Made by a program: the position numbers and the translations under genes. Below the pieces are notes generated by a model. That model saw nothing but the letters and a program-made list of their open reading frames with translations. It was not told the DNA's origin and searched no databases. A DNA stretch of 64,000 nt. It comes from Solwaraspora sp. WMMD406. GTDB taxonomy: Bacteria; Actinomycetota; Actinomycetes; Mycobacteriales; Micromonosporaceae. Positions 10,285-48,517 of this stretch are shown in pieces. Within the stretch, counting starts at the first letter, position 1. Every line of letters starts with the position of its first letter. The stretch spans positions 124,001 through 188,000 of the forward strand of contig NZ_JARUBF010000001.1 of the NCBI RefSeq assembly GCF_029626025.1. Reading direction: 5' to 3'.

Positions 10285-10324
10285 CCACACGTCTTGTCCA
10301 GCTGGAGGCGAGCCCGGCTCGGTG

Positions 10325-18830: not shown

Positions 18831-21800
18831 CGGGTCACCGCCCCGTCGGTGATCTCGCTGAGCAGTTTGACGACGCCCGGGGCGTGCGCCACGTCGATGC
18901 AGCTGAAGTGGTCGCCGGGTACGTCGACGATGCGCAGGTCGCCCAGGCACAGCTCGGCCCAGTGCTGGGTGACCGCGTCCCGGCTGCCCGGGAACGGATA
19001 GGCACCGCTGTGCCGCAGGAAGGTGATGTCGCCGGCGTACGGCTCCGGTTCGTAGCGGGTGATGGCGAACACGCTCTGCCGGAAGGTGCGGAACAGCCGC
19101 ATCATGTGGTCCGGCTCGTACATGCCGGCCGAGGCGGGAACCGCCTCGCACATCCGGGCGACCCGCTGCTCGCGGGGCAGGGCGGCGAGCGCCCGGAAGG
19201 CGGCGGCGACGTCGGCGTGCTCGCCGGTCAGTTCGACGAAGCCGCCGTCACGCAGCACACCGGGGCTGCCGGCCAGGACCGCGTCGGCGGCGCGGGCCAC
19301 CGCGAGTTCGTCGGCGGGGAACCCGATGTCGGCCGGCGCGATACCCATCATCACCGCGAACGAGTACTCCGACAGCAGTTCGTCGTCGAGCCGGAACCGG
19401 GGGCTGTGGCTGCTGATCGCGGTCAGGGTCGCGACGTTGGCTCCGTTCTCGCTGAGGCCCCGGGCGATCTCGGTGGCGATCAGCCCACCGAGGCAGTAGC
19501 CGACGACGTGCAACTCGCGGGCGCCGAGTTCACCGATCGCGGTCGCGTAGTCGGCGGCGATCCGGTCGATCAGGCCGGCCGGGTCGGCGTCCAGGTAGGT
19601 CGGCAGGTGCGGCACCTCGATACCGACGACCGAGCTGGTGCCGGCGGAGCGGCGGCGGATCTCGGTGATGATCGCCCGGTACGGCATGATCGTGCCGGTG
19701 CCGGCGTGCACCAGTACGGTGAGCGGATCGGTGCCGGAGCCGTGCAGCCGGACCACCGGTGAGGTGCGGACCGGACCGTCGCCCGGTGCCGACGTCTGCG
19801 GTGTGGTGACCGTACGCAGGTAGGCCGCGAGTGCGGCGACGGTCGGTTGGCGCAGCATGTGCCGCAGCACCACCTCCCACTCGAGGGCGACGACGTCGGG
19901 GACGCGTTCCCGCAGCAGGCCGACGAGGCGGGCGACGAGCAGCGAGTCGCCGCCGAGGGCGAAGAAGTCGTCGTGGCGGCCGACGTACTCGCGGTCGAGC
20001 AGTTCCGCCCAGATGGCGGCGAGCTGGCGTTCCAGCGCGTCCACCGGATCGGCGGCCACCGCCGCGGTCTGCTGGCCCTGGTCGGTGCCGGGCAGCCAGG
20101 TCCGCAGCCGGTTGCGGTCGACCTTTCCGTTGCTGGTACGCGGCAGCACGTCGACCAGCTGCCACACTGTCGGCACCATGTAGTCGGGCAGCCGGGCGCT
20201 GGTGTGCCGGACAAGGTCGGCGGTGGTCACCGGCGTACGGTCGGTCTTGACCCGGGCCAGGAACAGCTGCTGGCCGGTGGGGTGCAGCGGCTCGCCGGCC
20301 GCCGGCAATTGGGTGACGAGCTCGGCTCCGGCCGTGCCGAGCAGCTCGCGCCACTGTGGCTCGGTGAGGAAGGACTGACCGGCGGCGGCGCGCACGTCGG
20401 TGAACGGGCCGGCGGTGGCCTCCAGGAACTCCATGGACACCAGCAGCGCCGGGTCGTCGTCGCGGGTCTGTTCCATGATCACCAGCCAGCCGCCGGGGGC
20501 GAGCAGGCCGGAGAGCCGCTCGACGGCGGCGGCCGCGTCCGGTGCGGTGTGCAGGTGGTTCGCGGCGACGACCACGTCGACGCTGTTCGGGGTCAGCCCT
20601 TGGGAGCGGGGGTCGTCGCGCAGGTCGAAGCGGGCGTAGCGGATCCACGGGTGGTGGGCGAACTGGTCCCGGGCTTCGTTGAGGAAGAACGTCGACGGGT
20701 CGGTGAACAGGTAGTCGGGGCGGTACTCGGCCAGGACGGGAGCGAGCAGACTGGTGGTGCCGGCGACACCGCCGCCGACCTCCAGCACCCGCAGCGCTCC
20801 GTCGCCGTCGTGCCGCTCGGCGATGTGCCGCAGCGCCGCGACGACCGCCTGGTGCAGGTGGGCGACGGCGAGGTTGTCGCGGTAGGCGGCGGCCATCGCG
20901 TCGGCGCGGGCACCGGGGAACAGCAACGCGCGGATGTCGGTGCTGCCGGCGATCAGCGCCGGCAGGTGGTCGGTGCAGGTGCGGACCGCGTCGATCAGGT
21001 CGGTGCTGTAGTCGAGCCGACGATCGGCCTCGGCGAGTCGCCGCCAAGCGCCGTCGAGGTCGTCGGGCGCCGGTACGGCGAGATCGCCGTACCGGGCGGC
21101 ATCGGTGACGCGGAGCCGCTCGGCGCGGGTCAACGCGGCGAGCCACCGGCGCACGATCGGTGCGGTCACCGTGGTGGCGTGCAACGCCTGGCAGATCTCG
21201 TCGGCGCTGTGCCAGGTGTCACCGATGGCGACGTCGGCACCGGCGAGGGTGGCGGCCATCGCCGTCAGCGCGACGTCGGCCAACGCGGCCTGGAAGTCGG
21301 CGAGGGCCTGCGGATCGACCCCGGTCTGCGCGGCCCGCGACGCCGCCGCGGCGGCGGCACCAGCCCCGGCGGCGGTGCCGGTGGCAGGGGTGCCGGTGGC
21401 GGGGGTGCCGGTGGCGGCGTCGGGCGTGGTGAGGGCGGGTTCGACGAACGCGGCGAGCCGCTTGCCGCCGGGGTGGGCGGCGTCGACCAGCACGGCGGCA
21501 CCGGCGACACCCGGGTGGGCTTGCACAGCGGTCTCGACCTCGGCGAGCTCGATCCGGTAGCCCCGGATCTTGACCTGGTCGTCCTCCCGGCCGAGGAACT
21601 CGATGGTCCCGTCGGGCCAGTAGCGGCCCAGGTCGCCGGTGCGGTAGAGCCGTTCACCGGTCCTCGGATGCCGCAGGAACCGTTCGGCGGTGCGCTGCGG
21701 GTCGTGGTAGTAGCCCAAGGCCACGCCGGCACCGCCGATGTAGAGCTCGCCGGCGATCCAGTCGGGACGATCCCGCAACCGGGCGTCGAGCACGTGGAAC

Positions 21801-24451
21801 GTCTGGTTGGTCAGCGGCACCCCGTACGGGATGCTGGGCCGGTCGTGGTCGACGACGTCGATGGGATGCCAGATCGACCAGATCGCACCCTCGGTGGCGC
21901 CGCCGAGGCTGACCACCCGCAGCTGCGGCAGCAACTCCCGGACCGCGTCCGGCAGGCCGACCGGGATCCAGTCGCCGGAGAGCATGGCCAGCCGCAGCGC
22001 CGCCGGCCGCAGGTCCGGCACCGCTCGCAGGTAGTCGTGCAGCATCTGCAACTGGCCGGGTACCGAGTTCCAGATCGTGACGGCGTGGCGGTCGGCGAGG
22101 TCTGCCCAGTGTGACGGGTCGCCACGACGGTCCGCTCCGGGCAGCACCAACCGGCCGCCGACGGCGAGCGGGCCGAAGACGTCGTAGACCGACAGGTCGA
22201 AGCCGAGACTGGCCAGGCCGAGTACGGAGTCGTCCGGACCGACGGCGAACCTGCGGTTGATGTCGTCGATCGTGTTGCGCGCCGACCGGTGGCTGATCAT
22301 GACGCCCTTGGGTGTTCCGGTGGACCCGGAGGTGTAGATGACGTACGCCAGGTCGTCGGGTCCGGGACGGGCGAGGGCCGGGGGCCGGTCTCCGGCTGTC
22401 GGTTCGGTCTGCGCCGACGGCCCGCCGCGGGCCACCGTGTCGACGGCCACCGCGTCGACGGCCACCGCGTCGGCGGCCACCGCGTCGGCGGCCACCGCGT
22501 CGGCGGCCACCGCGTCGGCGGCCATGGTGTCCACCGCGACGGCGGTCACCGTCTCGGGCAGGGCCGCAGCGTCGATCAGCCAGGACTGGGTCAGTACGGT
22601 ACGCACCTGCGCGTCGGTGAGGATGGCATTGCGCCGGGCGGCCGGTTGGGTGACGTCGACCGGCAGGTACGCCCCGCCGGCGAGCAGGGTGCCGAGGACC
22701 CCGACGATCTGCTCCCAGCCCTTGTCCATCAGCACCGCGACCGGTTCGGTGGGACGCAGCCCGGCGACGGCGAGCAGATCGGCGACGGCGGTCGCGCGGT
22801 CGAGCAGGTCGCGGTAGGTCAGCTCGTGTCCGTCGGCGACGACCGCCACCCGGTCGGGGGTGCGGTGTGCCTGGGCGACGACGTCGTCGTGCAGCAGGCC
22901 GTCGGGGAGCGGGCCGTCGGTGGCGTTGACCTGCCGGCGGCGCTCGCGCTGCGCGGCGGGCAGCGCGACCGGGGACGGATCCCGCCACGGGTCGTCATCG
23001 GCGGCGAGGCGCTCGACGAGATCGGCCCACGCCCCGAAGGCGTCGTCGGCCAGGTCGGCCGGCAGTACGTTGTCGCGCACGTCCCAGGACAGAGCCAGTC
23101 CGTCGCCGCGCGGCATGACCTGGCAGTCGATCCAGACCTGCGGGGTCTGGCTGATCGCGTAGCCGACCTGGCCCTGGGCCGGCGACGGCGCGGGTGTGTC
23201 GAGGGTGCTGGTGAACACGACAGGGAGCAGCTGCCGGGTGCCGGTGCGTCGGCTCAGTTCGGCGAGGACCTCGCTGCCGGTGAACAGGCCGTGCGACAGG
23301 TCCTCCAGGAGTTGGCCGGCGACCGCCGTGGCGCGCTCAGCGAACGGAAGTGGCGCGGTGAGGTCGACGGCGAGTGGTTCGACGACGGTGAAGTCGCCGA
23401 CCAACGACTCGACGGCGGGATGCAGCGGCAGTCGCTGGAAGGTCGGGATGTTGAGCGTGAACCTCGGGTTGCGACTCCACCTGCCGATGACCTCGGCGTA
23501 GGCGGTGAGCAGCACGGTCGAGACGCTCACCTGGTGGCGGGCCGCGCGCTCACGCAGTGCGGTCCACGCCGCGCCCCGCAGCTGGTGTTCCCGCCGACGG
23601 AACCGGACCGGCCCGGTGCCGCTGGCGTCGCCGGCGGGTAGTTCGGGGGCTCCGGGCAGGTCGTCAAGGCGGCGCAGCCAGTATTCCCGGTCGCGGCGGT
23701 ACGCCGGGGTGTCGGTGATCCGACGGCGGCCGATCAGATAGTCACGGTAGGTGACGTCGATGGGGTCGAGAGTGGCCTGCGGGTCGGTGTAGAGCTGGTC
23801 GAACTCGGTGACGAGTCGCTGCACGCTGGCGTAGTCCACGATGAGCAGGTCGAGGGAGAGGTGCAGGACCGCCCGGTCGTCGGTGCGGGTCACGTGCAGG
23901 GCGAACAGCGGCCAGCGGTCGGTCGGGGCGACCCGGTGCGACAGCCTGTCGCGCAGCTGCCGCAGGTGGTCGTCGATCTCGGTTGCCGGGTGTCCACGCA
24001 GGTCGGTGACGCCGATCGGACAGGCCGGTGGCTGGGCGAGGACGACCTGGTAACCGTCGCTGTGCACCACGGCGCGCAGCATGTCGTGCCGGGCGACGAG
24101 CCGGTCCCAGGTGTGCTGCACCCGGTGCGGGTCCAGGTCGGGGTAGTCGTACTCGACGTAGGCGTGGCAGGCGACGCCGCCGTACTCGTAGTGGGTGCCC
24201 CGGCCGACCAGGTAGGCGGCCTGCAGATCGGACAGCGGGAAGGGTTCGTGTCGGCCGGCCGGGTCGGCGGTGACCCGGGCGGGTGCGGTCTGCCGCAGGT
24301 GTGCGCGGATGGCCTCGCGGTGCCGGCGTACGGCGGCCCGCCGCTCCTCGGTGAAGGCGCCCTTGCGCGCGCGGAACCGTAGCTCGTCGCCTTCGAGCCA
24401 CAGGGTCACGCCGTCGGCGTCCAGCTCGGTGATCAGTTCGTCGACATCCAT
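18827..24451 (-). CDS. NRPS module: docking-Cy-A(MT)-PCP-TE, terminal cysteine module
   Basis: About 1874 residues. Order: an N-terminal TubC-type docking domain (1-55); a heterocyclization domain with the DxxxxDxxS motif at D201-D206-S209; an adenylation domain with A3 near 706-716; an embedded methyltransferase (VLEVGGGVAGTTS near 1222-1234); the A10 end SNGKVDR; a carrier protein with Ser1503; and a thioesterase. Specificity residues read DLYNMSLIWK, one change from the cysteine code DLYNLSLIWK. The architecture equals PchF. The TE nucleophile is Cys1653 (GYCLG) instead of Ser. The ATG at 24451 with GGAG upstream is preferred to a GTG at 24472. The promoter carries the Zur box at 24504. 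Confidence 0.92.
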   Translation of the reverse strand: MDVDELITELDADGVTLWLEGDELRFRARKGAFTEERRAAVRRHREAIRAHLRQTAPARVTADPAGRHEPFPLSDLQAAYLVGRGTHYEYGGVACHAYVEYDYPDLDPHRVQHTWDRLVARHDMLRAVVHSDGYQVVLAQPPACPIGVTDLRGHPATEIDDHLRQLRDRLSHRVAPTDRWPLFALHVTRTDDRAVLHLSLDLLIVDYASVQRLVTEFDQLYTDPQATLDPIDVTYRDYLIGRRRITDTPAYRRDREYWLRRLDDLPGAPELPAGDASGTGPVRFRRREHQLRGAAWTALRERAARHQVSVSTVLLTAYAEVIGRWSRNPRFTLNIPTFQRLPLHPAVESLVGDFTVVEPLAVDLTAPLPFAERATAVAGQLLEDLSHGLFTGSEVLAELSRRTGTRQLLPVVFTSTLDTPAPSPAQGQVGYAISQTPQVWIDCQVMPRGDGLALSWDVRDNVLPADLADDAFGAWADLVERLAADDDPWRDPSPVALPAAQRERRRQVNATDGPLPDGLLHDDVVAQAHRTPDRVAVVADGHELTYRDLLDRATAVADLLAVAGLRPTEPVAVLMDKGWEQIVGVLGTLLAGGAYLPVDVTQPAARRNAILTDAQVRTVLTQSWLIDAAALPETVTAVAVDTMAADAVAADAVAADAVAADAVAVDAVAVDTVARGGPSAQTEPTAGDRPPALARPGPDDLAYVIYTSGSTGTPKGVMISHRSARNTIDDINRRFAVGPDDSVLGLASLGFDLSVYDVFGPLAVGGRLVLPGADRRGDPSHWADLADRHAVTIWNSVPGQLQMLHDYLRAVPDLRPAALRLAMLSGDWIPVGLPDAVRELLPQLRVVSLGGATEGAIWSIWHPIDVVDHDRPSIPYGVPLTNQTFHVLDARLRDRPDWIAGELYIGGAGVALGYYHDPQRTAERFLRHPRTGERLYRTGDLGRYWPDGTIEFLGREDDQVKIRGYRIELAEVETAVQAHPGVAGAAVLVDAAHPGGKRLAAFVEPALTTPDAATGTPATGTPATGTAAGAGAAAAAASRAAQTGVDPQALADFQAALADVALTAMAATLAGADVAIGDTWHSADEICQALHATTVTAPIVRRWLAALTRAERLRVTDAARYGDLAVPAPDDLDGAWRRLAEADRRLDYSTDLIDAVRTCTDHLPALIAGSTDIRALLFPGARADAMAAAYRDNLAVAHLHQAVVAALRHIAERHDGDGALRVLEVGGGVAGTTSLLAPVLAEYRPDYLFTDPSTFFLNEARDQFAHHPWIRYARFDLRDDPRSQGLTPNSVDVVVAANHLHTAPDAAAAVERLSGLLAPGGWLVIMEQTRDDDPALLVSMEFLEATAGPFTDVRAAAGQSFLTEPQWRELLGTAGAELVTQLPAAGEPLHPTGQQLFLARVKTDRTPVTTADLVRHTSARLPDYMVPTVWQLVDVLPRTSNGKVDRNRLRTWLPGTDQGQQTAAVAADPVDALERQLAAIWAELLDREYVGRHDDFFALGGDSLLVARLVGLLRERVPDVVALEWEVVLRHMLRQPTVAALAAYLRTVTTPQTSAPGDGPVRTSPVVRLHGSGTDPLTVLVHAGTGTIMPYRAIITEIRRRSAGTSSVVGIEVPHLPTYLDADPAGLIDRIAADYATAIGELGARELHVVGYCLGGLIATEIARGLSENGANVATLTAISSHSPRFRLDDELLSEYSFAVMMGIAPADIGFPADELAVARAADAVLAGSPGVLRDGGFVELTGEHADVAAAFRALAALPREQRVARMCEAVPASAGMYEPDHMMRLFRTFRQSVFAITRYEPEPYAGDITFLRHSGAYPFPGSRDAVTQHWAELCLGDLRIVDVPGDHFSCIDVAHAPGVVKLLSEITDGAVTR
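22446..22520 (-). repeat. In-frame 15-bp tandem repeat inside the NRPS adenylation domain
   Basis: Five 15-bp copies of GGCCACCGCGTCGGC (one base varied in the first) encode repeated ADAVA residues in a loop just before core motif A3. Degenerate flanking copies extend the tract. Confidence 0.9.
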
Positions 24452-24503
24452 CGGGCTCCGCCTCGTTGTCACAGTCTGTTCGGGTCACTCCACCCAGCGA
24501 CTT

Positions 24504-24522
24504 GTTGAAAATGACATTCAAC
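24504..24522. promoter_or_regulatory. Zur box in the divergent promoter of the NRPS operon and aryl-AMP ligase
   Basis: GTTGAAAATGACATTCAAC is a palindrome with perfect 6-bp arms. Its core TGAAAATGACATTCA differs at two positions from the actinobacterial Zur consensus TGAAAATGATTTTCA. It lies 52 bp from the NRPS start and 54 bp from the AMP-ligase start, so one site can control both directions. In S. coelicolor the coelibactin cluster is known to be Zur-regulated. Confidence 0.9.
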
Positions 24523-24576: not shown

Positions 24577-26304
24577 ATGAACCCCGACCGCGAGGACAGA
24601 CCCGTAGGTCCCGGCATGACCGTCGACCCGGGCTGGGTGGCTTGGCCGGAGTCCGACGCACGGCGGTACCGGGCCGCCGGCTTCTGGACCGGTGAGACCT
24701 TCGGCGACCTGCTCCGGCGCTGGGCACAACAGCACGGTGGACGGACCGCCCTGGTCGACGGGACTCGACGATGGACGTACCGGCAGCTGGACGAGGCGGC
24801 GGACCGGATCAGCGCCGGGCTGCACCGGATCGGGCTGCGCCGTGGCGACCGGGTCGTCCTGCAGCTGCCGAACCGGGCCGAGTTCGTCGAGATCTGGTTC
24901 GGTCTGCAGCGGCTCGGCGCGGTCCCCGTACACGCCATGCCCGGACACCGTCGCGCGGAGATCGCCCACCTGGCGGCGCTGTCGGGCGCGGCCGGCTACG
25001 TCGTCGCAGACCGGCACGCCCGGTTCGACTACCGCACCCTGGCCGCCGAGGTGTACGCCGAACGCCGCACCGCCGACGAGCCGTTGCGCCACGTCGTGGT
25101 GCTCGGCGACCCGGCGGAGTCCGGCTTCACCAGCTACGCCGACCTGCTCGACGGCCCGGCCGAGCAGACCGCGACCGCCGACGACCCTCGGCCGACCGCC
25201 GACGGCCCTGCGCCGACCGCCGCCGACCTGGCGCTGCTGCTGCTCTCCGGCGGCACCACCGGGCTGCCCAAACTCATCCCCCGCAGCCACGACGACTACG
25301 CCTACAACGCCCGCAACGGCGCCGAGATCTGCCGGCTCGGACCGGACGACGTCTACCTGGCCGTGCTGCCGATCGGCTTCAACTTCACCTTCGCCTGCCC
25401 CGGCGTGCTGGGCACCCTGATGGCCGGCGGCACCGTCGTCGTCGCCCCCAACCCGAGCCCGGCCACCGCCTTCCGACTGATCGAACAGGAACGGGTCACC
25501 TGCACCGCGCTCAACCCACCGCTGGTGCCGTACTGGTTCGCCGAGTACGCCGACAGCCGACCCGACCTGTCCAGCCTGCGGTTCGTACAGGTCGGCAGCG
25601 CCCGGCTGGCCGACGAGCTGGCGCGACGGTTCACCCCCACCCTCGGGGTGCCGCTGCAGCAGGTGTACGGCATGGCCGAAGGCCTGATCAACTACACCCG
25701 ACTCGACGACCCCGACGACCTGGTCTGCACCACGCAGGGCCGCCCCGGCTCCCCCGCCGACGAGATCCGCGTGGTCGACCCCGCCGACGGGCGACCGGTA
25801 CCGGCCGGCGAGCCCGGTGAGCTGCACACCCGTGGGCCGTACACGCTGCGCGGCTACTACCGCGCCGACGCCACGGCAGCCGCCTCCTTCACACCAGACG
25901 GCTTCTACCGCACCGGTGACCTGGTCCGGGAATTCCCGACCGGGCACCTCACCGTGGTTGGCCGGGTCAAGGACCAAATCAACCGGGGCGGCGAGAAGAT
26001 CGCCGCGACCGAAGTGGAGGGTCATCTGCTCGCCCACCCGGCCGTCCGGCAGGCCGCGCTCGTCGGCGTACCGGACGAGCAGTGGGGTGAGGCACCGGCG
26101 GCCGTCCTGGTCTGCGCCGGGCCGCCGCCGACGGCCGCCGAGGTGGTGGCGTTCCTGCGCGGACGCGGGCTGGCCGCGTACAAGCTGCCGGACCGCGTCG
26201 AGTACGTCGACGCGATGCCACTGACCGCCGTCGGCAAGATCGACAAGAAGGTGCTCGCGCGGCGCCTGGCGGCGACCACGGTCACCACCGGTCCGGATGC
26301 ATGA
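24577..26304 (+). CDS. Stand-alone aryl-AMP ligase loading the starter acid
   Basis: A 575-residue member of the DhbE/EntE/YbtE/MbtA family. It activates an ortho-hydroxy aryl acid as an adenylate and loads it on the aryl carrier domain of the NRPS at 30466. A3 reads LLSGGTTGLPKL, A5 YGMAEGLINYTRL, A8 GRVKDQINRGGEKI, and the catalytic lysine lies in TAVGKIDKK. The acid-binding motif, HNYPLS in DhbE, is here FNFTFAC (268-274). The key Asn269 is kept, Cys274 occupies the place used by salicylate enzymes such as MbtA, and His is replaced by Phe. Salicylate or 3-hydroxypicolinate are both compatible. AGAAGGGA precedes the ATG; the Zur box is upstream. Confidence 0.92.
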   Translation: MNPDREDRPVGPGMTVDPGWVAWPESDARRYRAAGFWTGETFGDLLRRWAQQHGGRTALVDGTRRWTYRQLDEAADRISAGLHRIGLRRGDRVVLQLPNRAEFVEIWFGLQRLGAVPVHAMPGHRRAEIAHLAALSGAAGYVVADRHARFDYRTLAAEVYAERRTADEPLRHVVVLGDPAESGFTSYADLLDGPAEQTATADDPRPTADGPAPTAADLALLLLSGGTTGLPKLIPRSHDDYAYNARNGAEICRLGPDDVYLAVLPIGFNFTFACPGVLGTLMAGGTVVVAPNPSPATAFRLIEQERVTCTALNPPLVPYWFAEYADSRPDLSSLRFVQVGSARLADELARRFTPTLGVPLQQVYGMAEGLINYTRLDDPDDLVCTTQGRPGSPADEIRVVDPADGRPVPAGEPGELHTRGPYTLRGYYRADATAAASFTPDGFYRTGDLVREFPTGHLTVVGRVKDQINRGGEKIAATEVEGHLLAHPAVRQAALVGVPDEQWGEAPAAVLVCAGPPPTAAEVVAFLRGRGLAAYKLPDRVEYVDAMPLTAVGKIDKKVLARRLAATTVTTGPDA

Positions 26305-27427
26305 ACGCCACCGGCACCTGCGGCGGCGTCCCGCGGACCAGATCGGCCACCACCTCACCGACACCGGTGGCGTGTTTGAACCCGTGCCCGCTGTCGCCCC
26401 CGGCGACGATCAGCCGGGTGTCGCCGCCCGGGCTGCCGAGCACGAACTGCCGGTCCGGAGTCATCGGATACATGCAGACCGCGGCACGCGACGGCACCGG
26501 ATCCAGACCGGGCAGCGCGACGTCGAGCCGGCGCACCAGCGGCGCCCAGTCGTCGGCGGCGACGCGGCGGTCGTCGCCGTCCGGACGCATCTCGCGCAGT
26601 AGCCCGCCGTGGTCCTCCAAGCCGAGTTTCAGCTCGCCGCCGGAGTGCGCCCCGTGCCCCCACACGCAGGTGCCGTCATCCAGTTCGCGGATGAACACCG
26701 GCACGTCGGCCAGCCCGTACCGGTCGACGTCGGCCAGGGTGGCCGGCCGGAACCAGGTGATCGGCACCCGCAACACCCGCAGTGGGATCCCGGGCAGCAG
26801 GGTCGGCAGCCACGCCCCGGCGGCGACCACGACCTGCCGGGACCGGACGGCACCGCCGGCGGTGTGCACCAGCACACCGCCGGCGACCAGCTCGATCCGG
26901 GTCACCCGGAGGTTGGTCAGCACCCGCGCGCCCCGCCCGACCGCGACCCGGACCGCCGCCCGGACCGCCGCCTCCGCGGCGATCAGCCCGGCGGCCGGCT
27001 CCCACACCGCCGCGTGGTGGTCGCCGATCCCGGCGTGCCGGGGCAGTCGCTCACGCAGCTCAGCGGCGTTCCAGACCTCGACATCGAGTTCGTGGCGCCG
27101 GGCGGCGGCGATGGTGCCGGCGACCACCTGCCCGGTACGGGGCCCGATCAGCGCGCCGCCGGTCGGCTCGAACAGGGCCTCCCCGGCCGCCGACGCCAGC
27201 TCCTGCCAGAGCTGGCCGGACCGGCGGGCCAGGGGCACCAGGTCCGGGTGTTCCAGGCAGGCGGTACGGAACATCCTGGTCCCGCCGTGCGACGAACCGA
27301 AGCCGTGGCCCGGGGTGAACTGGTCGACGCCGATCGCGTCAACGCCGGTCGCAGCCAGTCGCCACAGCGCGGCGGCGCCGAACACCCCGAGCCCGACGAC
27401 GACGACCTCAGCGTCCGGCGAGCGCAC
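26282..27427 (-). CDS. FAD-dependent amine oxidase of the sarcosine oxidase/NikD family
   Basis: A 381-residue flavoprotein. It has an N-terminal FAD motif VVVVGLGVFGAAALWRLA, the RMFR segment after GSSHGGT, and Cys318 in AAVCMYPMTPDRQF, aligning with the cysteine that holds FAD covalently in monomeric sarcosine oxidase, N-methyltryptophan oxidase and NikD. A C-terminal SGHGFKHATGVGE completes the signature. NikD is known to oxidize piperideine-2-carboxylate to picolinate. Beside an aminotransferase, a luciferase-like monooxygenase and an aryl-AMP ligase, that role is the best guess here. The GTG start overlaps the monooxygenase gene; the 3' end overlaps the ligase gene convergently by 23 bp. 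Confidence 0.85.
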   Translation of the reverse strand: MRSPDAEVVVVGLGVFGAAALWRLAATGVDAIGVDQFTPGHGFGSSHGGTRMFRTACLEHPDLVPLARRSGQLWQELASAAGEALFEPTGGALIGPRTGQVVAGTIAAARRHELDVEVWNAAELRERLPRHAGIGDHHAAVWEPAAGLIAAEAAVRAAVRVAVGRGARVLTNLRVTRIELVAGGVLVHTAGGAVRSRQVVVAAGAWLPTLLPGIPLRVLRVPITWFRPATLADVDRYGLADVPVFIRELDDGTCVWGHGAHSGGELKLGLEDHGGLLREMRPDGDDRRVAADDWAPLVRRLDVALPGLDPVPSRAAVCMYPMTPDRQFVLGSPGGDTRLIVAGGDSGHGFKHATGVGEVVADLVRGTPPQVPVAFMHPDRW

Positions 27428-28580
27428 GGCTGGCCTCGCCGGAACCGTCCGGGGCCGGTTCGGCGCGGGAACCGTCCAGCGCCACCTGTTCGGCGCGGGA
27501 ACCGTCCGGCGCCACCTGTTCGGTGTCGGCGAAGTGCGGCGCCACCTGTTCGGCGAACAACCGCAGCGCCCGCTGCGCGTCCGCCTTCGCGGTCGCTCCC
27601 GGGTTGACCTGCAGACACACGGTCACGTCGGTGCCGAACCATTCGGCGATCGTGGCCAGCTGGTCGCGCACCTGGGCGGGGGTGCCGGCGAGGACCTTGT
27701 TGTCGGCGTACGAACGGTCGAAGTCGTACTGCCGCACCTTGTCGATGAGCTGCTCGTACCCGGGATAGTCGGCGCTGCGCACCGTCGACCAGGAGGCGAT
27801 CGCGGTGGTCATCTTGTCGATGTAGTTGAGCTCGAAGCGGCGGGCGGCGGCCAGCGCGGCAGCGCCGTCCTCCGCGAGGTAGCAGGTGTACTTGACCTGC
27901 ACCCGTCCCGGGCCGGGGTGGCCGGCGGTGGCCCGCGCCTGGCGGTAGGCGGCGAGCATCTCCTGCAAACCGCCAAGGCTGGTCACCGTCGGTACGACCT
28001 GCAGGTGGTATCCGGCGCGGCCGGCCTCGGCGCAGGACGCGGGACTGGTGGTGGAGGCCACGAAGATCGGCGGGTGCGGCCGCTGGTACGGCCGGGGCAG
28101 CATCGTCACCGGGCCGAAGGTGACCCAGTCACCGGACCAGGACACGTCGGTTTCCGTCCACAGTCGGCGGCAAATCTCGATCCCTTCGGCGAACCGGGCG
28201 CGGCTGGCGCTCATCGGCACCTCGAAGGCGGCGAACTCCTCCGGCAGGAACGCCCGGCCGAAGCCGACATCGAGCCGACCGTGGGACAGGTTGTCCAGCA
28301 TGGCCAGTTTGCCGGCGAGCTTGATCGGATGGGTGAAGGCGGGCACCACGGCACCGGTGGTCACCCTGATCCGCCGGGTCCGGGCGGCGACCGCCGCCAG
28401 GAACGTCACCGGGTCCGGGCTGTAGCCGCCGTAGGCGGAGAAGTAGTGCTCCACCACCTGGACGTGCTCGTACCCGAGTTCGTCGGCGAGTTCCGCCAGC
28501 GCCAGGCTCTCGTCGTACCAGTCGACCGCGCTTTTCTCATCCGGCGACAGGACCGGGAAAAAACCCACACCGAATTGCAT
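27408..28580 (-). CDS. Luciferase-like (LLM) flavin-dependent monooxygenase
   Basis: A 390-residue bacterial-luciferase-fold protein. Family marks are MQFGVGFFPVLSPDEKSA, EHVQVVEHYFSAYGGYSPDP, LDNLSHGRLDVGFGRAF and PHPPIFVASTTSP. These enzymes use reduced FMN (or F420) delivered by a reductase; the flavin reductase beside zur is a candidate partner. The C-terminal tail repeats ten-residue units of the type EQVAPDGSRA. GGAGGGCAC precedes the ATG. Operon context with a NikD-like oxidase suggests 3-hydroxylation of picolinate (inference). Other ring or N-hydroxylations cannot be excluded. Confidence 0.85.
   Translation of the reverse strand: MQFGVGFFPVLSPDEKSAVDWYDESLALAELADELGYEHVQVVEHYFSAYGGYSPDPVTFLAAVAARTRRIRVTTGAVVPAFTHPIKLAGKLAMLDNLSHGRLDVGFGRAFLPEEFAAFEVPMSASRARFAEGIEICRRLWTETDVSWSGDWVTFGPVTMLPRPYQRPHPPIFVASTTSPASCAEAGRAGYHLQVVPTVTSLGGLQEMLAAYRQARATAGHPGPGRVQVKYTCYLAEDGAAALAAARRFELNYIDKMTTAIASWSTVRSADYPGYEQLIDKVRQYDFDRSYADNKVLAGTPAQVRDQLATIAEWFGTDVTVCLQVNPGATAKADAQRALRLFAEQVAPHFADTEQVAPDGSRAEQVALDGSRAEPAPDGSGEASRALAGR
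27440..27556 (-). repeat. In-frame 30-bp repeats at the C-terminus of the LLM monooxygenase
   Basis: Units containing GGCGCCACCTGTTCGG recur about every 30 bp and encode EQVAP/EQVAL-DGSRA repeats after the end of the catalytic barrel. Confidence 0.8.
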
Positions 28581-28825
28581 ATGTGCCCTCCGTGGCGAAT
28601 AGCCGGTAGCGCGTACAAGTGAAGGCCATCAGCACATCGGATGTCAACAAGGAGGGGCAGAAAGAGTTTTCCTGATCACACCTTGGAGCATTTAGCGGAG
28701 CAACCGTTGATGCTCTTTCAAGCCTGCCCATAAGCGAATTCACCAAGCTATCAACACTTTTGCACATCCGACTCGACATGCTATTTTCCGGTCCAACCAT
28801 CGCCATCGCAGGAGCTGCGGAACCA
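28581..28825. other. Divergent intergenic region, A/T-richer, no clear Zur or iron box
   Basis: A 245-bp spacer between the LLM monooxygenase (minus) and the aminotransferase (plus). It is less GC-rich than its surroundings and must hold both promoters. Comparison with the Zur and iron-box consensus on both strands found nothing above about half identity; the nearest is GGAAAATAGCATGTC on the minus strand near 28779. Confidence 0.5.
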
Positions 28826-30112
28826 ATGGACGATCAGGATTACCAGGTTGCCTTTCCGGCGCGCGGCAGCGTGCTCGACGCCGCAGAACTCGCCGCACTC
28901 ACCGAACTGGTCGACTCAGGACATACACTGTCGGCCGGCAGCCGCCGGACGGCTTTCGAACGACGGTTCGCCGAGTACGTCGGTACCCGGCACGCGTTGT
29001 CGGTGACCAGCGGAACCGTGGCGCTCGAGCTGGCGATCCACCTCGCCGACCTCCGCCCGGGAGACGAGGTGGTCACCACACCACAGACTTTCTCCGCGAC
29101 GATCCACCCACTGCTGGCACACGATGTGCGAGTGCGTTTCTGTGACGTCGACCCGGTGTCGCTCAACATCGATCCGACGGCGGTGGAGGCGGCGGTGAAC
29201 GGCCGCACCGCCGCAGTGATCCTGGTCCACTACGGCGGGTATCCGGCCGACATGGGCCGCATCGTCGCCGCCGCCCGTCGGCACGGCGCCGTGGTCATCG
29301 AGGACTGCGCCCACGCACTCGGCGCGACCTGGCACGGACGGCGCCCCGGCGCGTTGGGTGACATCGGATGCTTCAGCTTCCACAACTCCAAGAACATCAC
29401 CACCCTGGGTGAGGGTGGAATGCTCACCTTCGACCGCGACGATTGGGTCGAGCGAATCGATCGAATCCGGTCGAACCAGCCCGATGTCGAACTCGGTCCG
29501 ACCCGCTTTCCGGAGCCGCCGCCCACTCCCCTGCTGCCGTGGATGCGGTTCTCCGAGGAGGTCTACGGGCGCGACTACGCCCGCGTCAGGAGACCCGGTA
29601 CGAACGCCACCATGTCCGAAGCCGCCGCTGCCGTGGGCATCGTCCAACTCGACCGCATGGCGCGCCTCACCGCCCGCCGCCGGCACATCGCCGAGCGACT
29701 CGACGAGTGCATCGGCCGCTACCCGCAGGTCCGTCTGCACCGCCCGCCGCCGGGGCTCGGTCACGCGTACCACCTGTACACCTTCTTCGTGGAGGCCGGC
29801 CGGGCGACGCGTGAACACCTGGTCCGCGAGCTGGACCGCCACGGGGTGGAGGTCCAGCTGCGCTACTTCCCACTTCATCTGACCCCCGAGTGGCGGGCCC
29901 GTGGCCACCGTCGGGGTGAATGTCCGGTCGCCGAGCGGCTCTGGTTCGACGAGCAGATCAACCTGCCGTGCCATCCGGGAATCACCGACAGGCAGCTCGA
30001 CTACCTGGTCGAGGCGGTCACCGCGGCCCTCGACACGACGCTGTCGCCCGCCGGAGCGCCGCCCACGGCCATTTCCGTACCGCTGCCCGACCACACCGTG
30101 ACGTCGGCCTGA
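28826..30112 (+). CDS. DegT/DnrJ/EryC1/StrS-family PLP aminotransferase (candidate lysine 2-aminotransferase)
   Basis: A 428-residue fold-type I PLP enzyme of the StrS group. It shows TSGTVALELAIH (cofactor phosphate), VVIEDCAHALGA (Asp on the pyridine nitrogen) and the Schiff-base Lys189 in HNSKNITTLGEGG. The ATG at 28826 is preferred because GGAG lies 12 bases upstream; an upstream ATG at 28760 lacks one. Most relatives act on sugars. To my knowledge L-lysine 2-aminotransferases of picolinate pathways (NikC, VisA, HpaA) are enzymes of this kind, which suits the NikD-like neighbour. There are no sugar genes nearby, so the amino-acid role is favoured. Confidence 0.85.
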   Translation: MDDQDYQVAFPARGSVLDAAELAALTELVDSGHTLSAGSRRTAFERRFAEYVGTRHALSVTSGTVALELAIHLADLRPGDEVVTTPQTFSATIHPLLAHDVRVRFCDVDPVSLNIDPTAVEAAVNGRTAAVILVHYGGYPADMGRIVAAARRHGAVVIEDCAHALGATWHGRRPGALGDIGCFSFHNSKNITTLGEGGMLTFDRDDWVERIDRIRSNQPDVELGPTRFPEPPPTPLLPWMRFSEEVYGRDYARVRRPGTNATMSEAAAAVGIVQLDRMARLTARRRHIAERLDECIGRYPQVRLHRPPPGLGHAYHLYTFFVEAGRATREHLVRELDRHGVEVQLRYFPLHLTPEWRARGHRRGECPVAERLWFDEQINLPCHPGITDRQLDYLVEAVTAALDTTLSPAGAPPTAISVPLPDHTVTSA

Positions 30113-30145: not shown

Positions 30146-30469
30146 ATGCCCTTCATCGACGTCCGCATCTTCGAGGAACGGCTCACCCCGGCCGTGCAGG
30201 AGGCGCTCGTCACCCGGTTGTCCGACGCCGTCGGCGAGGTGCTCGGCGAGGACGCGCGGGCGCAGACCTGGGTGGTCCTGACAGCCGCGCCGGCTGACCG
30301 CTGGGGCATCGGCGGCGTACCGGCCAAGCCGCCGGCGGCGGCGACGACGTCAGCAGCGCCGGCGGCGGCGACGACGTCAGCAGCGTCGGCGGCGGCAACG
30401 TCGGCGGCAACGTCGGCAGGCCAGGACAACGGCCGGCAGCCGACGGACAGCGAAGGCCAGGCGCGATGA
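30146..30469 (+). CDS. 4-oxalocrotonate tautomerase-family protein
   Basis: A 107-residue protein. After Met removal it begins with Pro (PFIDVRIFEERLT), the catalytic base of the tautomerase superfamily, and contains WVVLTAAPADRWGIGG, typical of the 4-OT fold. The last 50 residues are low-complexity Ala/Thr/Ser repeats, unusual for the family. GGAG lies upstream of the ATG and its 3' end overlaps the NRPS start as ATGA. A role in imine/enamine tautomerization during starter synthesis is possible but speculative. Confidence 0.7.
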   Translation: MPFIDVRIFEERLTPAVQEALVTRLSDAVGEVLGEDARAQTWVVLTAAPADRWGIGGVPAKPPAAATTSAAPAAATTSAASAAATSAATSAGQDNGRQPTDSEGQAR

Positions 30470-33400
30470 CCATCTCGTCCCGATACGCCGCCGACCAGGC
30501 CGCCCCCGACCAGACAGTCACCGACGGAAGCGCCGCTGGTGCGGGCGTGCCGCCACCGTCGCCGGCCACCGATCCGGTACGCGCGGCGGTCGCCTCGGCC
30601 CTCAACGTGGAGTACGCCGAACTGACCCCCGAGGCTGACCTGTTCGCGCTCGGGCTGGACTCGCTCACCCTGATCCGGCTGGTCTCCGGGTGGCGCCGGG
30701 CCGGACACCTGGTCACCTTCGAGCAACTGGCCGAGGCACCGACGCTGGCCGACTGGGCGGCCGCGCTGGCCGCCACCCCGACCGGCAGCCGCACCGGTGC
30801 CCCGGCCGGCAGTTCCGCAGAGGACACCGACAGCGGCGACGCCGCCCAGCACACCGTCGGCGGCGACGCCGAGCCGGGCACGACACCGACCGACGACGCC
30901 ACCGGCCCGGTCGACCCGGCGGCACCCTTCGAACTGGCGACCATGCAGTACGCGTACTGGATCGGCCGGCAGGACAACCAGCCGTACGGCGGCGTCGCCG
31001 CTCACTTCTACGTGGAGTTCGACGGCCACGGCGTCGACCCGCAGGCCCTGGACCGGGCACTGGCCGCGCTGTCGGCCCGGCATGGCATGCTGCGGGCCCG
31101 ATTCGACGACACCGGGCGGCAGCGGATCGCCGCCCGGGGTGGACTGGCGTTGACCGTGCACGACCTGCGGACGCAGGCACCGCAGGAGGTGGAGCGGCGG
31201 TTGGCCGGACTACGGCAGCGGTACACCCACCAGCGGATGGACGTCGAACACGGCGAGGTCCTCGCCGTCGCGGTGAGTCTGCTGCCCGACGGTGCCACCC
31301 GGCTGCACGTCGACCTCGACATGCTGGTCGCGGACGCGTTGAGCATGCGGATCCTGCTGGACGACCTGCGCCGCCTTTATGAACGGCCGGACGAGCCACT
31401 GCCGCCGGTCACCTCGGGTTTTCCCCAGTACCTGGCCGCGCACCGGCGGGCGGCGGCGACCGACCGGGACCGGGCCCGCGCCTGGTGGCGCGACCGCCTC
31501 AGCGACCTACCCGGCGGCCCGCAGCTCCCACTGCGTCCGGACGCCGGTAGGCCGGGTGCCGCCGCACGCAGCGAACGGCTGCACCACTGGCTCGACCCGC
31601 GACGCAAACAGGCGCTGCTGGAGCGGGCGGCCCGACATCAGGTGACGCCGGCGGCCGCGCTGGCGACCGCCTTCGCCGAGGTGCTCGGGGCGTTCAGCGA
31701 CGACCGCCGGTTCCTGCTCAACCTTCCGCTGTTCGCCCGGGAGCCGTTGGTGTCCGACGTGAACCGGCTGGTCGGTGACTTTTCCAGCTCGGTGCTGCTC
31801 GGCGTGGACACCGGCGGGGTGCTGCCGTTCACCGATCGGGCCCGCCGGGTGCAGTCGGACCTGCACGCCGCCGTCGACCATGGTGCGTACGCCGGGGTGG
31901 AGGTGCTGCGTGACCTGTCCCGTCAAGCGGGGCAGCCGGTGCTTGCCCCGGTCGTCTACACCAGCGCGCTGGGCCTCGGCGAGATCTACGACACGGCGTT
32001 GCAGGACACCTTCGGTACGCCCTCGTGGATCATTTCGCAGGGCCCGCAGGTGTGGCTCGACGCCCAGGTCACCGAGCTCGACGGCGGGCTGCTGCTGAAC
32101 TGGGACGTCCGGCTCGACGTCCTGGCCGACGGGGTCGCGACGGCGGCCTTCACCGCGTACCGGGAGTTGGTGGAGGCGCTGGTCGGCACCGACGACGCCT
32201 GGCGGCGTCCGGTGGGATCGGTGCTGCCGGCCGGGCAGGCGGCGGTCCGGGCGAAGGTCAACGCCACAGCGGTCGACCGGCCGGCGCGCTGCCTGCACGA
32301 CGGCTTCCTGCGGCAGGTCGCGGACCGGCCGCACCAGCCCGCCGTCATCGACGGTGACCGTACAGTCAGCTACGCCGAGTTGGCCGACGCCGCAGCGCGG
32401 GTACACACGCTGCTGGCCGCGCACGGGGTGGGTCCCGGCGACCCGGTCGGCGTCACCCTGCCCAAGGGGACCGATCAGATCGTGGCGGTGCTCGGTGTGC
32501 TCGCCGCCGGGGGCTGTTACGTGCCGGTCGGCATCGACCAGCCGGCACACCGTCGGGCCCGGGTGCACACCCTCGGCGGGGTACGGGTGGTGCTCACCGA
32601 CCCGGACCACCGCGAGCGGGTGTCGGCCGCCGGGGCCCGACCGGTGCTGGTCGGCGACGCGGCGACGCTGGCACCGTCTACGCCAGCGCCGGTCGACCCG
32701 CAGGCGCTCGGGTACGTGCTGTTCACCTCCGGTTCCACAGGGGATCCGAAGGGGGTGGAGATGACCCACGCGGCGGCGGTGAACACCATCGACGCGCTGA
32801 ACGCCCGGCTGGACCTCGGCCCCGACGACCGGGTGCTCACCCTGTCGGGGCTGGAGTTCGACCTGTCGGTGTACGACGTCTTCGGCCTGCTCACCGCTGG
32901 CGGCGCGCTGGTGGTCGTCGGTGAGGACCAGCGACGCGACGCGGCAAACTGGTGGCGACTGGTGACCCGGCACCGGGTCTCCGTGTGGAACACCGTACCG
33001 GCGCTGCTCGACATGCTGCTGGTGGCCGCGACCGACCGGACCGCGACGCCCGACGCCACGACGCCCGAGGCCACGACGCCCCACGCCGCGACGGAGCACC
33101 AGCCGACGACGGAGGACCCGCCGACGACGGCGCTGCGGGCCGTCCTGCTCGGTGGCGACGTGATCGGCCCGGACCTGCCGGGCCGGCTGCGGGCCGTCGC
33201 CCCGGCCTGCCGGTTCCTCGCTCTCGGCGGCATGACGGAGGCGGCGATCCATTCCACCGTGTACGAGGTACCGCCCGCCGGCCCGCAGGAGACGTCGATG
33301 CCCTGGGGGGTGCCGCTGGACAACGTGGTCTGCCGGGTGGCCGACGCCGACGACCGGGACCGGCCCGACTGGGTGACCGGTGAGTTGTGGGTCGGCGGCG

Positions 33401-36400
33401 CCAGCCTTGCCCGTGGCTACCGGGGCGACCCGCAGCGCACCGCCGACAAGTTCGTCACGTACGCCGGGCGGCGCTGGTATCGCAGCGGCGACCTGGCCCG
33501 CTACCGGCCGGACGGCACCCTGGAGTTCCTCGGCCGGGCCGACCACCAGGTCAAGATCCGGGGACACCGGATCGAACTCGGCGAGGTCGAGGCGGCGCTC
33601 GTCGCCCACCCGGCGATCGAGCAGGCGGTCGCCGTGGTGACCGGCGAGGGTCCGGCCCGCCGGCTGGCCGCAGCCGTCACGATGTCGTCCACCGGCGCCG
33701 ACGCCGACGCCGACGCGAGCCCACCGGACGATCTGGACGGTTGGCTCGCCGACCGGCTGCCGGAGCACATGCGGTGTGACACCGTCACGGTGTGGCCGCG
33801 ACTGCCGTTGACCGGCAACGGCAAAGTGGACCGGTCCGCCGTACGGGCGGCGTTGACCGCCGACGCCGAGCTGCGACGCGGCGGTGAGCGGCCGGCGCAG
33901 CCACCGCAGGGCGCGCTGGAGACGCTGGTCGCCGAGGTCTGGTCCGAACTGCTCGGCGTGGCCGGGGTGAGCCGAGACGACTCGTTCTTCGCGCTCGGTG
34001 GCGACTCGCTGCTCGCCACCGGCCTGCTGGTCCGGCTGCGCGGCAGCGGCGTGCGGGGGGCCCGGCTGGCCGCCCTGTTCGCCAGCCCCCGGCTGGCGGA
34101 CTTCGCCGCCGGTCTGACACTGGACGACGCCGCGCCCCGGCCCGGTACGCCGGCCGCCGACCCGGGCCAGGTCGCCGAACCGGTGGTGGTCGCCGACCTG
34201 GCGCACCGGCACGAACCGTTTCCGCCGACGGACGTGCAGCGCGCCTACTTCGTGGGCCGGGATCCCCGGCTGCCGCTCGGTGGCGTCGGCACCTGGCAGT
34301 ACATCGAGTTCGACGGGGTCGACGTCGACCTCGACCGGCTGCGACACGCCTGGCAACGGCTGGTCGACCGGCACGAGATGCTGCGGGCCGTGTTCGACGC
34401 CGACGGCAACCAGCGAATCCTGCCCGAGGTGCCGCCGGTCCGGATTGACCTGGTCGACGTGGGCGACGCGGTCGACCTGATCGACCTGATCGACGTGGTC
34501 GACCCGGTCGACGCGGTCGACGCGGTCGACGCGGTCGACGCGGTCGACGCCGATACGGCCACGGCGCTGGAGCAGCTCCGGACGAGCCGGTCGCACCTGC
34601 TGACCGACCTGACCCGCTGGCCGCTGTTCGACGTGGCGGCGGTGCGCTATCGCGAGGCCGGACAGGTCCGTACCAGGGTCGCGGTCGGACTCGACTACAT
34701 CGTCTTCGACGCCCTGTCGATCATGACCCTCTACACCGAGCTCGACCTGCTCTATCGGCAGCCGAACGCCGACCTGCCGCCGATCGAGGTGTCGTTCCGC
34801 GACTACCTGCTGCAGGTTCGCCCGGATCCCGAGGTCGTCGAGCAGGATCAGCGGTACTGGACGCGACGCCTCGCCGGCCTTCCGCCCGCGCCGCAGTTGC
34901 CGACCACCCGCCACCCGGCCGAGGTGACCCGACCCCGGTTCACCCGCCGGCAGCACCACCTGGCGCCGCAGGCGTGGGCGGCGATCCGGGGCCGGGCCCG
35001 CCGGCACGGGCTCACCCCGTCGACGGTGCTGCTCGCCGCGTACGCCGAGGTGCTCGGTGCCTGGAGCGGCCGGCGTGACCTGACGGTCACCCTGACGTTG
35101 TTCAACCGGCGCGACGCGCATCCGCACGTCTATCGGGTACTCGGCGACTTCACCACCTTGTCGCTGGCCGACTACCGGCCGACCGTCGGCGGCACCTTCC
35201 TGGCCGACGCCACCGCGCTGCACCGGCGGATGGGCGAAGACCTGGACCACCGCGAGGTCAGCCCGTCCTGGCTGCTGCGGGAACTGGCCCGGGTCACCGG
35301 CAGCATGGAGGCGATGCCGGTCGTGTTCACCAGCGCGATCGGCGTCGGCGACGGCGTGTCCATGGACCGCTCGGAGCCGTTCCCGCAACCGGTCTGGGGC
35401 ATCTCCCAGTCACCCCAGGTGTGTCTGGACAACCAGGTGCTGGAGTCGCACGACGGGTTGCTGGTGACCTGGGACAGCGTCGACGAGCTGTTCCTGCCCG
35501 GCGTACTGGACGCGATGTTCGAGGCCTACCTGGGCCTGCTCGACCATCTCGCTGGTGCCGACTGGGACACGCCGGTGCCGGCGTTGCTGCCGGCCGGGCA
35601 GCGGACGGTCCGGGAACGGATCAACGCCACCGACGCGCCGATCCCCCGGCAGACGCTGCACGGCCGTGCCTTCGCCGCCGCCCGCCACGCGCCGGAGCAC
35701 CCGGCGCTCATCTGGCACGACAGCGGCGGCGGTCCGGCCACGATGACCTACGCCGAGCTGGCCGAGCGGGCGCTGCGGATCGCGGGCGCGCTGGTCACCG
35801 CCGGGGTACGCCGTGGCGATCCGGTGGCGATCACCCTGCCGAAAGGCCCGGACCAGGTGGTGGCGGCCCTCGGCGTCCTGGCCGCCGGCGCGGCGTACGT
35901 TCCGGTCGGGGTGGAGCAGCCCGCGCTGCGCCGCGAGCGGATCTACCGGGACGCGGGCGTCACGGCGGTGATCGCCGCCGACGACGCGGACACCGGCCCG
36001 GCTCCGGCGCTGTCGGTGGCGGCCGCGCTTGCGGCGACGCCGCTGGCCGAGCCGGTCCCGGTCGACCCCGACGATCCGGCGTACGTCATCTTCACCTCCG
36101 GTTCCACCGGCACCCCGAAGGGCGTCGAGGTCAGCCACGACGCGGCCGCGAACACCTGCACCGACATCAACACCAGGTTCGACGTCGGGCCGGACGACCG
36201 GGTGCTCGCCCTGTCCGCGCTCGACTTCGATCTGTCGGTGTACGACATCTTCGGCGTCCTCGGTGCCGGCGGCACGCTGGTGCTGCCGGCCGAGGACGAG
36301 CGACGCGACGCCCCCCGCTGGCTCGCGCTGGTCGCCGCGCACGGCGTGACGCTGTGGAACACCGTACCGACGTTGTTGGACATGCTGCTGGTGGCGGCCG

Positions 36401-42187: not shown

Positions 42188-42202
42188 CGACAATCATTTC
42201 CA
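42188..42202. promoter_or_regulatory. Zur box between rpmB and the COG0523 gene
   Basis: On the minus strand the site reads TGGAAATGATTGTCG, 12 of 15 identities to TGAAAATGATTTTCA with the whole AAATGATT core intact. It sits between divergent starts at 42171 and 42216 and probably represses both under zinc sufficiency. Confidence 0.9.
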
Positions 42203-48430: not shown

Positions 48431-48502
48431 GGGAGGCTCCTCGGTGTGGAGTCGAGCACAGTGTGCGAGGAAGATCCCCCGCAACCGCCAGCATCACCGA
48501 GA

Positions 48503-48517
48503 TGAAAACCATTGTCA
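48503..48517 (-). promoter_or_regulatory. Zur box upstream of the importer operon
   Basis: The minus-strand reading TGACAATGGTTTTCA has 13 of 15 identities to the Zur consensus TGAAAATGATTTTCA. It lies between the ferredoxin stop and the lipoprotein start, giving the importer its own zinc-controlled promoter. Confidence 0.9.

Follow-up and report, generated by a model that had tools for sequence, protein, structure and literature searches.

Which acid starts the product of a metallophore cluster that has no salicylate synthase is the question raised by the 64,000-nucleotide stretch of Solwaraspora sp. WMMD406 analysed here (the window; bases 124001-188000 of contig 1, in a genome of 7.16 Mb and three contigs). 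By Pfam, the four genes at 24577-30112 encode, as first described, an aryl-AMP (adenosine monophosphate) ligase, a flavin adenine dinucleotide (FAD) oxidase, a luciferase-like monooxygenase (LLM) and a DegT-fold aminotransferase, and the preliminary description proposed that they provide lysine-derived 3-hydroxypicolinate (3-HPA), not salicylate, as starter. The co-occurrence of the genes, phylogenetic trees and mutual exclusion with salicylate synthase bear this out, and we consider it highly likely that this is a metallophore cluster of the coelibactin/sorangibactin family in which lysine-derived 3-HPA has taken the place of salicylate at the starter module. Feature coordinates are collected in Table 1, and G and L numbers are our handles for genomes and loci, respectively.

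The window is confirmed as a metallophore cluster of the coelibactin/sorangibactin type with starter genes that are not those for salicylate. Like the clusters of coelibactin (S. coelicolor SCO7676-92) and sorangibactin, it has a seven-domain and a five-domain nonribosomal peptide synthetase (NRPS), a saccharopine-dehydrogenase-like (SrbE-like) protein, a thiazolinyl imine reductase and a cytochrome P450; unlike them, it has no salicylate synthase and carries a 3-HPA cassette. In motif reading of both NRPSs, all three Cy domains have DxxxxDxxS and all three A domains have DLSVYDxFG, a string that we take to specify cysteine. The family placement was made by the described gene set (PMC10127202, in the part drawn on here) and a tree of core proteins. 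According to the same source, sorangibactin obtains its starter from an Irp9-like salicylate synthase; since the missing synthase is precisely the claimed difference, the present cluster is filed as a variant of the family.

The absence of a salicylate synthase, which had been reported for the window, extends to the whole genome, where none of the four chorismate-binding proteins passes the TIGR03494 cut-off (best score 189.5 bits against 325.15). By NCBIfam, these proteins are TrpE, a PabB-type protein, an isochorismate synthase and one with weak anthranilate-synthase matches; the isochorismate synthase, encoded 27 kb upstream of the window, is over the cut-off of TIGR00543 and just under that of the DhbC model. 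A model for PchB-type lyases had no match in the genome, a null that adds little because the same model was over its cut-off in none of 14 control genomes. The full cluster, including the genes for the aminotransferase, the tautomerase, the monooxygenase, the oxidase and the ligase, is also found in G346, Pseudonocardia kunmingensis (G397) and Pseudonocardia sp. CNS-139 (G398, with several genes split by frameshifts), the monooxygenase/oxidase pair being some 20-30 kb from the ligase gene in both Pseudonocardia. Searching with the saccharopine-dehydrogenase-like protein placed the wider family in 31 of 397 genomes, and eight of these were fetched (G181, G363, G322, G162, G293, G205, G294 and G362). 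Salicylate synthase over the cut-off was found in the first five, inside the fetched stretch or no more than about 3 kb away from it, and in none of the four cassette genomes, and the aminotransferase was found in none of the eight by the 397-genome search and in the fetched stretches. Concatenating four core proteins gave a tree with a single clade (support 100/99) for the four cassette clusters and the five salicylate clusters. Within it the cassette clusters lie among the salicylate-type ones, and G293 and G162 branch off first when the remaining three rows are taken as outgroup. The four cassette clusters form one group in 24% of bootstrap trees, and one swap is not separated from two.

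The aminotransferase is of the StrS type, as first reported (PF01041, DegT/DnrJ/EryC1/StrS, 328.6 bits), and its Lys211, the presumed holder of pyridoxal phosphate, is invariant in five aligned rows. It occurs at 56% identity or more in five of 397 genomes of the order, its own included, where the next matches are at 38%; at 1e-60 it occurs in six of 72,556 plasmid records, all from Streptomyces; and a genome scan gave at least ten loci at 49-64% identity among the matches listed. The proteins of three streptogramin-B-type plasmid clusters are 62-64% identical to it. In a maximum-likelihood tree of 33 rows, a check that the preliminary description had suggested, it is sister to the G346 aminotransferase (97/89) within a 20-row clade (98/97) that also holds rows from streptogramin-B-type and NikD-type clusters, including the caerulomycin-like loci L015 and L016. 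All 12 rows taken as sugar-type fall outside this clade; they are ten of the 70 listed loci with no more than 38% identity and two from the 397-genome search, and are not annotated as such. Of the refuting outcomes named in the preliminary description, the two that sequence can address therefore did not appear: no salicylate synthase over the cut-off elsewhere in the genome, and no grouping of the aminotransferase with the sugar-type rows. By its kinship to streptogramin-B-type clusters, the enzyme is predicted to be a lysine aminotransferase.

The oxidase had been assigned to a sarcosine-oxidase/NikD family with Cys318. It does belong to the DAO family, has Cys318 and is above the cut-off of the NCBIfam N-methyltryptophan oxidase model, but its kinship to NikD holds at superfamily level only and it is of the solA/MSOX type instead. 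In the oxidase tree it falls in an 18-row solA-type clade (100/99), 15 rows of which come from cassette clusters including the streptogramin-B-type, and the five NikD-type rows form a clade of their own (100/100). Orthology to NikD was rejected on this separation and on the phmmer list of the window oxidase, which has no NikD at 1e-15, whereas the L015 oxidase matches NikD with 571 bits; compared with the NikD-like proteins of L015 and L016, the window oxidase reaches 25% identity. The monooxygenase near the ligase was correctly recognised as luciferase-like. For both proteins, the top six plasmid records are the six that hold the aminotransferase (51-54% identity for the oxidase, with nine records in total at 1e-40, and 59-66% for the monooxygenase, with 25 in total), and the two genes are at most 1 kb apart in the three annotated plasmid records examined. 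A window-type oxidase (54-57%) with an adjoining monooxygenase (59-64%) is present in five of the six searched genomes of named loci, whereas in the sixth, the genome of L024, the oxidase of the locus is NikD-type, an oxidase outside the locus is 38% identical, and such a monooxygenase is absent. A frame of L017 considered as an LLM candidate was set aside for having no Pfam match.

A further gene of the cassette, missed in the preliminary description and the fifth when the ligase is counted, encodes a 4-oxalocrotonate-type tautomerase. It lies directly 3' of the aminotransferase gene in all 15 examined loci of the LLM/solA type (the window, L012, L018-L023, L027 and L098-L103) and was not found, at E values up to 0.01, in the fetched stretches of six other loci (L015, L016, L017, L024, L025 and L028). 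The 3-HPA pathway is described as a lysine 2-aminotransferase, an FAD dehydrogenase and a flavin mononucleotide (FMN)-dependent monooxygenase with its reductase (PMC11481915), and this four-enzyme route, as quoted from part of the source, has no tautomerase; no paper joining a tautomerase to 3-HPA or streptogramin was found among the literature matches listed. We infer that the tautomerase shifts piperideine-2-carboxylate to its enamine, C3 then being open to the flavin hydroperoxide. Pristinamycin I and virginiamycin S both contain 3-HPA as a building block (PMC9854754, PMC11481915, both drawn on in part), and the aminotransferase, solA-type oxidase, LLM and tautomerase of the streptogramin B route (VisA/HpaA; ligase SnbA) are close kin of those in the window. 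Three of four annotated plasmid records are streptogramin-B-type by gene content, with genes for an AMP ligase, the aminotransferase, an ornithine/lysine-cyclodeaminase-family protein and a P450, gamma-butyrolactone-type genes and a 15-kb NRPS gene. In two of the three, pabB and the genes for chorismate mutase and prephenate dehydrogenase are present as well. The fourth (L098) combines the cassette with a different NRPS, and the other two of the six records are unannotated. The activities being predicted, we read the genes in the window as a 3-HPA cassette.

Unhydroxylated picolinate would be the starter if the LLM acted elsewhere and the oxidase made picolinate as NikD does. The first two enzyme classes, lysine aminotransferase and then oxidase, are indeed common to the caerulomycin route, in which CaeA2 has the layout KS-AT-ACP-Cy-A-PCP and a picolinate starter (PMC8149447, in part). 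This alternative is quite improbable, since NikD-type oxidases form a separate clade and are found with the caerulomycin-like L015 and L016, whereas the window-type oxidase accompanies the LLM in six of six plasmid records and five of six genomes, and the tautomerase in 15 of 15 loci as against none of six others. Caerulomycin/collismycin and nikkomycin (NikD) differ from the window in the same way, by a NikD-type oxidase and picolinate. Because NikD-type oxidases accompany caerulomycin-like picolinate loci, the combination of solA-type oxidase and LLM points to a hydroxylated acid, and 3-HPA is favoured over picolinate. L015 and L016 were also considered as desferrithiocin-like and ruled out, their synthases having the KS-AT-ACP-Cy-A-PCP layout.

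Two side observations concern the plasmid clusters. L098 (Streptomyces sp. 769 pSGZL) is a compact cluster in which the 3-HPA cassette is accompanied by an asparagine synthase, a flavin reductase and a single NRPS of roughly 1,560 residues, and it may yield a further, unassigned product with 3-HPA. In the streptogramin-B-type plasmids L104, L105 and L175, a stand-alone carrier protein adjoins the monooxygenase and oxidase, and the oxidation step of these clusters might take place on a carrier-bound substrate.

The best solved relatives of the window ligase are 2,3-dihydroxybenzoate (DHB)- and salicylate-AMP ligases, and the ligase tree groups it with four salicylate-type ligases in a clade of the coelibactin family (100/100). 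Its pocket reads PIGFNFTFACPG, compared with PMAHNYPLSSPG in 1md9, which we take to be DhbE. At the column of Gly307 of 1md9, Ser is present in all 14 aligned ligases of LLM/solA-type cassettes, which belong to two clades; the four salicylate-type ligases have Ala, Ala, Ala and Gly, and 1md9, 6e8o, 5wm2, G362 and three NikD-type rows have Gly. The Ser of the cassette ligases would meet the pyridine nitrogen. Since the ligase belongs to the coelibactin-family clade, it would have been kept and its substrate changed if the starter is 3-HPA; being outside the streptogramin clade, it is not filed as SnbA-type, and it may nevertheless work like one.

With the consensus TGAAAATGATTTTCA and up to three mismatches, the window has six Zur-box-like matches at four places, where 0.03 are expected, and with the published S. 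coelicolor motif and up to two mismatches it has 13, where 2.2 are expected. That motif comes from chromatin immunoprecipitation of Zur in S. coelicolor, which has a site at SCO7681/7682 (PMC5472717, in part). One of the window sites is at the divergent NRPS/ligase promoter. Coelibactin is alike in this respect, SCO7681 and SCO7682 being presumably its ligase and NRPS genes. The corresponding gaps between the ligase gene and a divergent NRPS gene in G346, G397 and G398 contain weaker sites (3, 3 and 4 mismatches, respectively), and the divergent gene is the other NRPS in both Pseudonocardia; L014 has a 3-mismatch site at the place orthologous to the importer site. Judged from these sites, repression by Zur under ample zinc is probable for the ligase/NRPS promoter and the importer at a minimum. 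A ribosomal S14 gene (Pfam) and L33/L28-like frames (by eye) at 41466-42170 are divergent from the CobW-type gene across a further Zur-like site. The Zur-like sites and the neighbouring CobW-type and ribosomal-protein genes are what speaks for a putative role as zincophore.

Several observations count against a 3-HPA starter or parts of the scheme around it. The ligase groups with the salicylate-type ligases of sister clusters and lies outside the streptogramin (SnbA-position) clade. The preliminary description set its pocket FNFTFAC against HNYPLS; the difference is real, but it is not evidence for 3-HPA, because salicylate-type ligases of sister clusters also have FNF, as FNFTM[SAN]C, and L022 and L027 share the stretch FNFTMSCPG with two salicylate-type ligases. 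The H-to-F change was dropped as a diagnostic for this reason, and the Gly/Ala-to-Ser column tracks the cassette better. The G346 ligase (L012:13527-14855) is without about 100 in-frame residues at the pocket, in a stretch with no Ns, from either decay or an assembly error; it was excluded from the ligase alignment, tree and Ser count. Since G205, G294 and G362 have neither a salicylate synthase over the cut-off nor the aminotransferase, absence of the synthase alone proves nothing, and three rows of the solA clade (L108, L109 and L171) come from genomes or a plasmid in which no aminotransferase was found. The fetched G346 and Pseudonocardia loci gave no relative of the flavin reductases from other 3-HPA clusters, and the Flavin_Reduct protein of the window (10325-10861), a possible cassette member, is only 26-37% identical to the flavin reductases of three other cassette records. 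The G398 Zur-like site is weak, since its 4 mismatches are a level at which off-target matches are common, and the TGAAAATGATTTTCA scan of the window gave no site with three or fewer mismatches 5' of the aminotransferase or monooxygenase gene. One A domain of sorangibactin that is predicted for cysteine takes serine (PMC10127202, in part), giving an oxazole, so the rings of the window product are not fixable from the code alone: three thiazolines are not assured, and an oxazole is neither predictable nor excludable.

These ligase features are also what would speak for salicylate as the starter still, imported or made by an unrecognised route, with the lysine cassette serving another purpose: the ligase is placed with the salicylate-type ligases of the coelibactin family and retains their FNFT..CPG pocket. 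Against it stand the genome, which is without a salicylate synthase over the cut-off or a PchB-type match (the latter of little weight), the presence of the cassette in all four clusters and of no aminotransferase in the salicylate sisters, and the Ser that replaces Gly/Ala in cassette ligases; we regard it as very unlikely.

With a 3-HPA starter, biosynthesis would proceed as follows, every substrate, product and metal being a prediction; the order of the 3-HPA steps is the one that we presume, and the enzyme classes are those of the published pathway. L-lysine would lose its alpha-amino group to the aminotransferase, and the resulting keto acid would close to piperideine-2-carboxylate, whose imine the tautomerase would move to the enamine; the LLM with reduced FMN would hydroxylate C3, and the solA-type FAD oxidase would aromatise the ring to 3-HPA. 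The ligase would adenylate 3-HPA and load it onto the ArCP domain of the 2325-residue NRPS, three Cys-type Cy-A modules would add residues that are then cyclised, and the methyltransferases, thiazolinyl imine reductase and P450 would tailor these before release by the TE domain. The transporters would export the product and take the metal complex back in; the ATPase and binding protein of the peptide/nickel-type importer are also kept beside the orthologous clusters, and uptake of the metal complex by this importer is possible.

A different aryl acid, 3-amino-4-hydroxybenzoate, might be expected from side genes 17 kb from the ligase gene. Genes for a 3-dehydroquinate (DHQ)-synthase-II, a DeoC-type aldolase, an arylamine N-acetyltransferase, an FAD monooxygenase and a flavin reductase lie at 5614-10861, and the first two (5614-7650) presumably correspond to the GriH/GriI route to this acid. 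As the source of the starter they were rejected, and such a starter is scarcely credible: none of the five side genes was matched (1e-6) in 11 fetched loci of the three orthologous clusters, and they have iron-box-like sites (7692-7710 and 9805-9823) and no Zur-like site within three mismatches of TGAAAATGATTTTCA. The looser S. coelicolor motif has two 2-mismatch matches, at 5160 and 8537. The side genes are possibly an iron-regulated aminohydroxybenzoate pathway beside the Zur-linked cluster. About 22-29 kb upstream of the window, L116 (G000:C1, about 94600-102400) has genes for an isochorismate synthase, an AMP-binding protein, a short-chain dehydrogenase and a C-A-PCP-TE NRPS, and is probably a DHB siderophore cluster in its own right. 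Within about 80 kb there are thus three clusters for metallophores or aryl acids.

Table 1. Features of the metallophore cluster and its surroundings, in positions of the window (functions are predictions)
Feature	Position	Strand	Basis or remark
Major facilitator superfamily transporter	11393..12952	-	conserved in orthologous clusters
S-adenosylmethionine methyltransferase	12939..13670	-	conserved in orthologous clusters
Cytochrome P450	14507..15940	-	PF00067; kept in G346, G397, G398
Thiazolinyl imine reductase (Irp3-like) and methyltransferase fusion	15736..17697	-	PF01408, PF21390, PF13649
Saccharopine-dehydrogenase-like protein, SrbE-like	17694..18836	-	PF03435; coelibactin/sorangibactin family feature according to PMC10127202 (in part)
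NRPS TubC_N-Cy-A(MT)-PCP-TE	18827..24472	-	Cy motif DxxxxDxxS, A-domain DLSVYDxFG
Zur-box-like site TGAAAATGACATTCA, divergent NRPS/ligase promoter	24506..24520		1 mismatch to published S. coelicolor motif
Aryl-AMP ligase, predicted 3-hydroxypicolinate:AMP ligase	24577..26304	+	AMP-binding
solA/MSOX-type FAD oxidase, predicted aromatising step to 3-HPA	26282..27427	-	DAO family; Cys318
Luciferase-like FMN-dependent monooxygenase, predicted C3 hydroxylase	27408..28580	-	Bac_luciferase
DegT-fold aminotransferase, predicted L-lysine 2-aminotransferase (VisA/HpaA/NikC kind)	28760..30112	+	PF01041
4-Oxalocrotonate-type tautomerase, N-terminal Pro (MPFIDV), Ala-rich tail	30146..30469	+	PF01361, 28.4 bits, cut-off 22
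NRPS read as ArCP-Cy-A-PCP-Cy-A-PCP	30466..37443	+	two C-type, two A and three carrier domains; A and Cy motifs; predicted to accept the starter and two units of Cys type
ATP-binding cassette (ABC) exporter-fold transporter 1	37440..39200	+	conserved in orthologous clusters
ABC exporter-fold transporter 2	39140..40924	+	conserved in orthologous clusters
Zur-box-like site between CobW-type gene (42216-43520) and small ribosomal protein genes	42188..42202		motif scans
Peptide/nickel-type ABC importer: ATPase, two permeases, solute-binding protein	43547..48484	-	domain calls
Zur-box-like site 5' of solute-binding protein gene	48503..48517		1 mismatch to published S. coelicolor motif

The preliminary description knew of no described example of a pyridine-capped thiazoline zincophore, which is too strong. 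Desferrithiocin is a 3-hydroxypyridyl-thiazoline siderophore with one thiazoline ring and an iron chelator. The predicted product of the window is likewise a 3-hydroxypyridyl-thiazoline, and desferrithiocin differs from it in the single ring and in the chelation of iron. It is described as a tridentate siderophore of S. antibioticus, in the part of the source drawn on, and no paper titled for its gene cluster was found in the literature search. Siderochelin is a metallophore that holds 3-HPA, for which a similar enzyme set has been proposed; unlike the window, its cluster as described in part of PMC11481915 has a polyketide synthase with O-acetylserine and no Cy-type NRPS modules. In streptogramin B, 3-HPA starts an antibiotic depsipeptide, and the ligase is of a different clade from that of the window. 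No coelibactin-type or Zur-linked metallophore with a 3-HPA starter was found among the literature matches listed, and the main text of a 2026 survey on mining nonribosomal peptide metallophores has neither 'picolin' nor 'pyridin' (PMC12971057). Metallophores with 3-HPA are therefore known already, and what appears to be new is a coelibactin-type cluster with a 3-HPA cassette.

As a tentative scenario, plausible though short of probable in our judgement, the starter was exchanged within a Zur-linked zincophore family: the salicylate synthase was lost, a four-gene lysine-to-3-HPA route of the antibiotic type was gained, the old salicylate ligase stayed in place and was adapted by a Gly/Ala-to-Ser change opposite the pyridine nitrogen, and the tautomerase is an unrecognised 3-HPA enzyme that makes the hydroxylatable enamine. 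Our reading adds a predicted pyridine-capped product to the metallophore family best known for coelibactin, a compound still not isolated as of 2023 (PMC10127202, in part). Since the salicylate-linked and 3-HPA-linked ligases are kin that differ at few positions of the pocket region, their comparison is useful for understanding aryl-acid specificity. A possible extra step in the 3-HPA route, which is used for streptogramin antibiotics too, becomes directly testable, and the exchange of a ring carbon for a pyridine nitrogen could alter how the product binds zinc and which metal it prefers.

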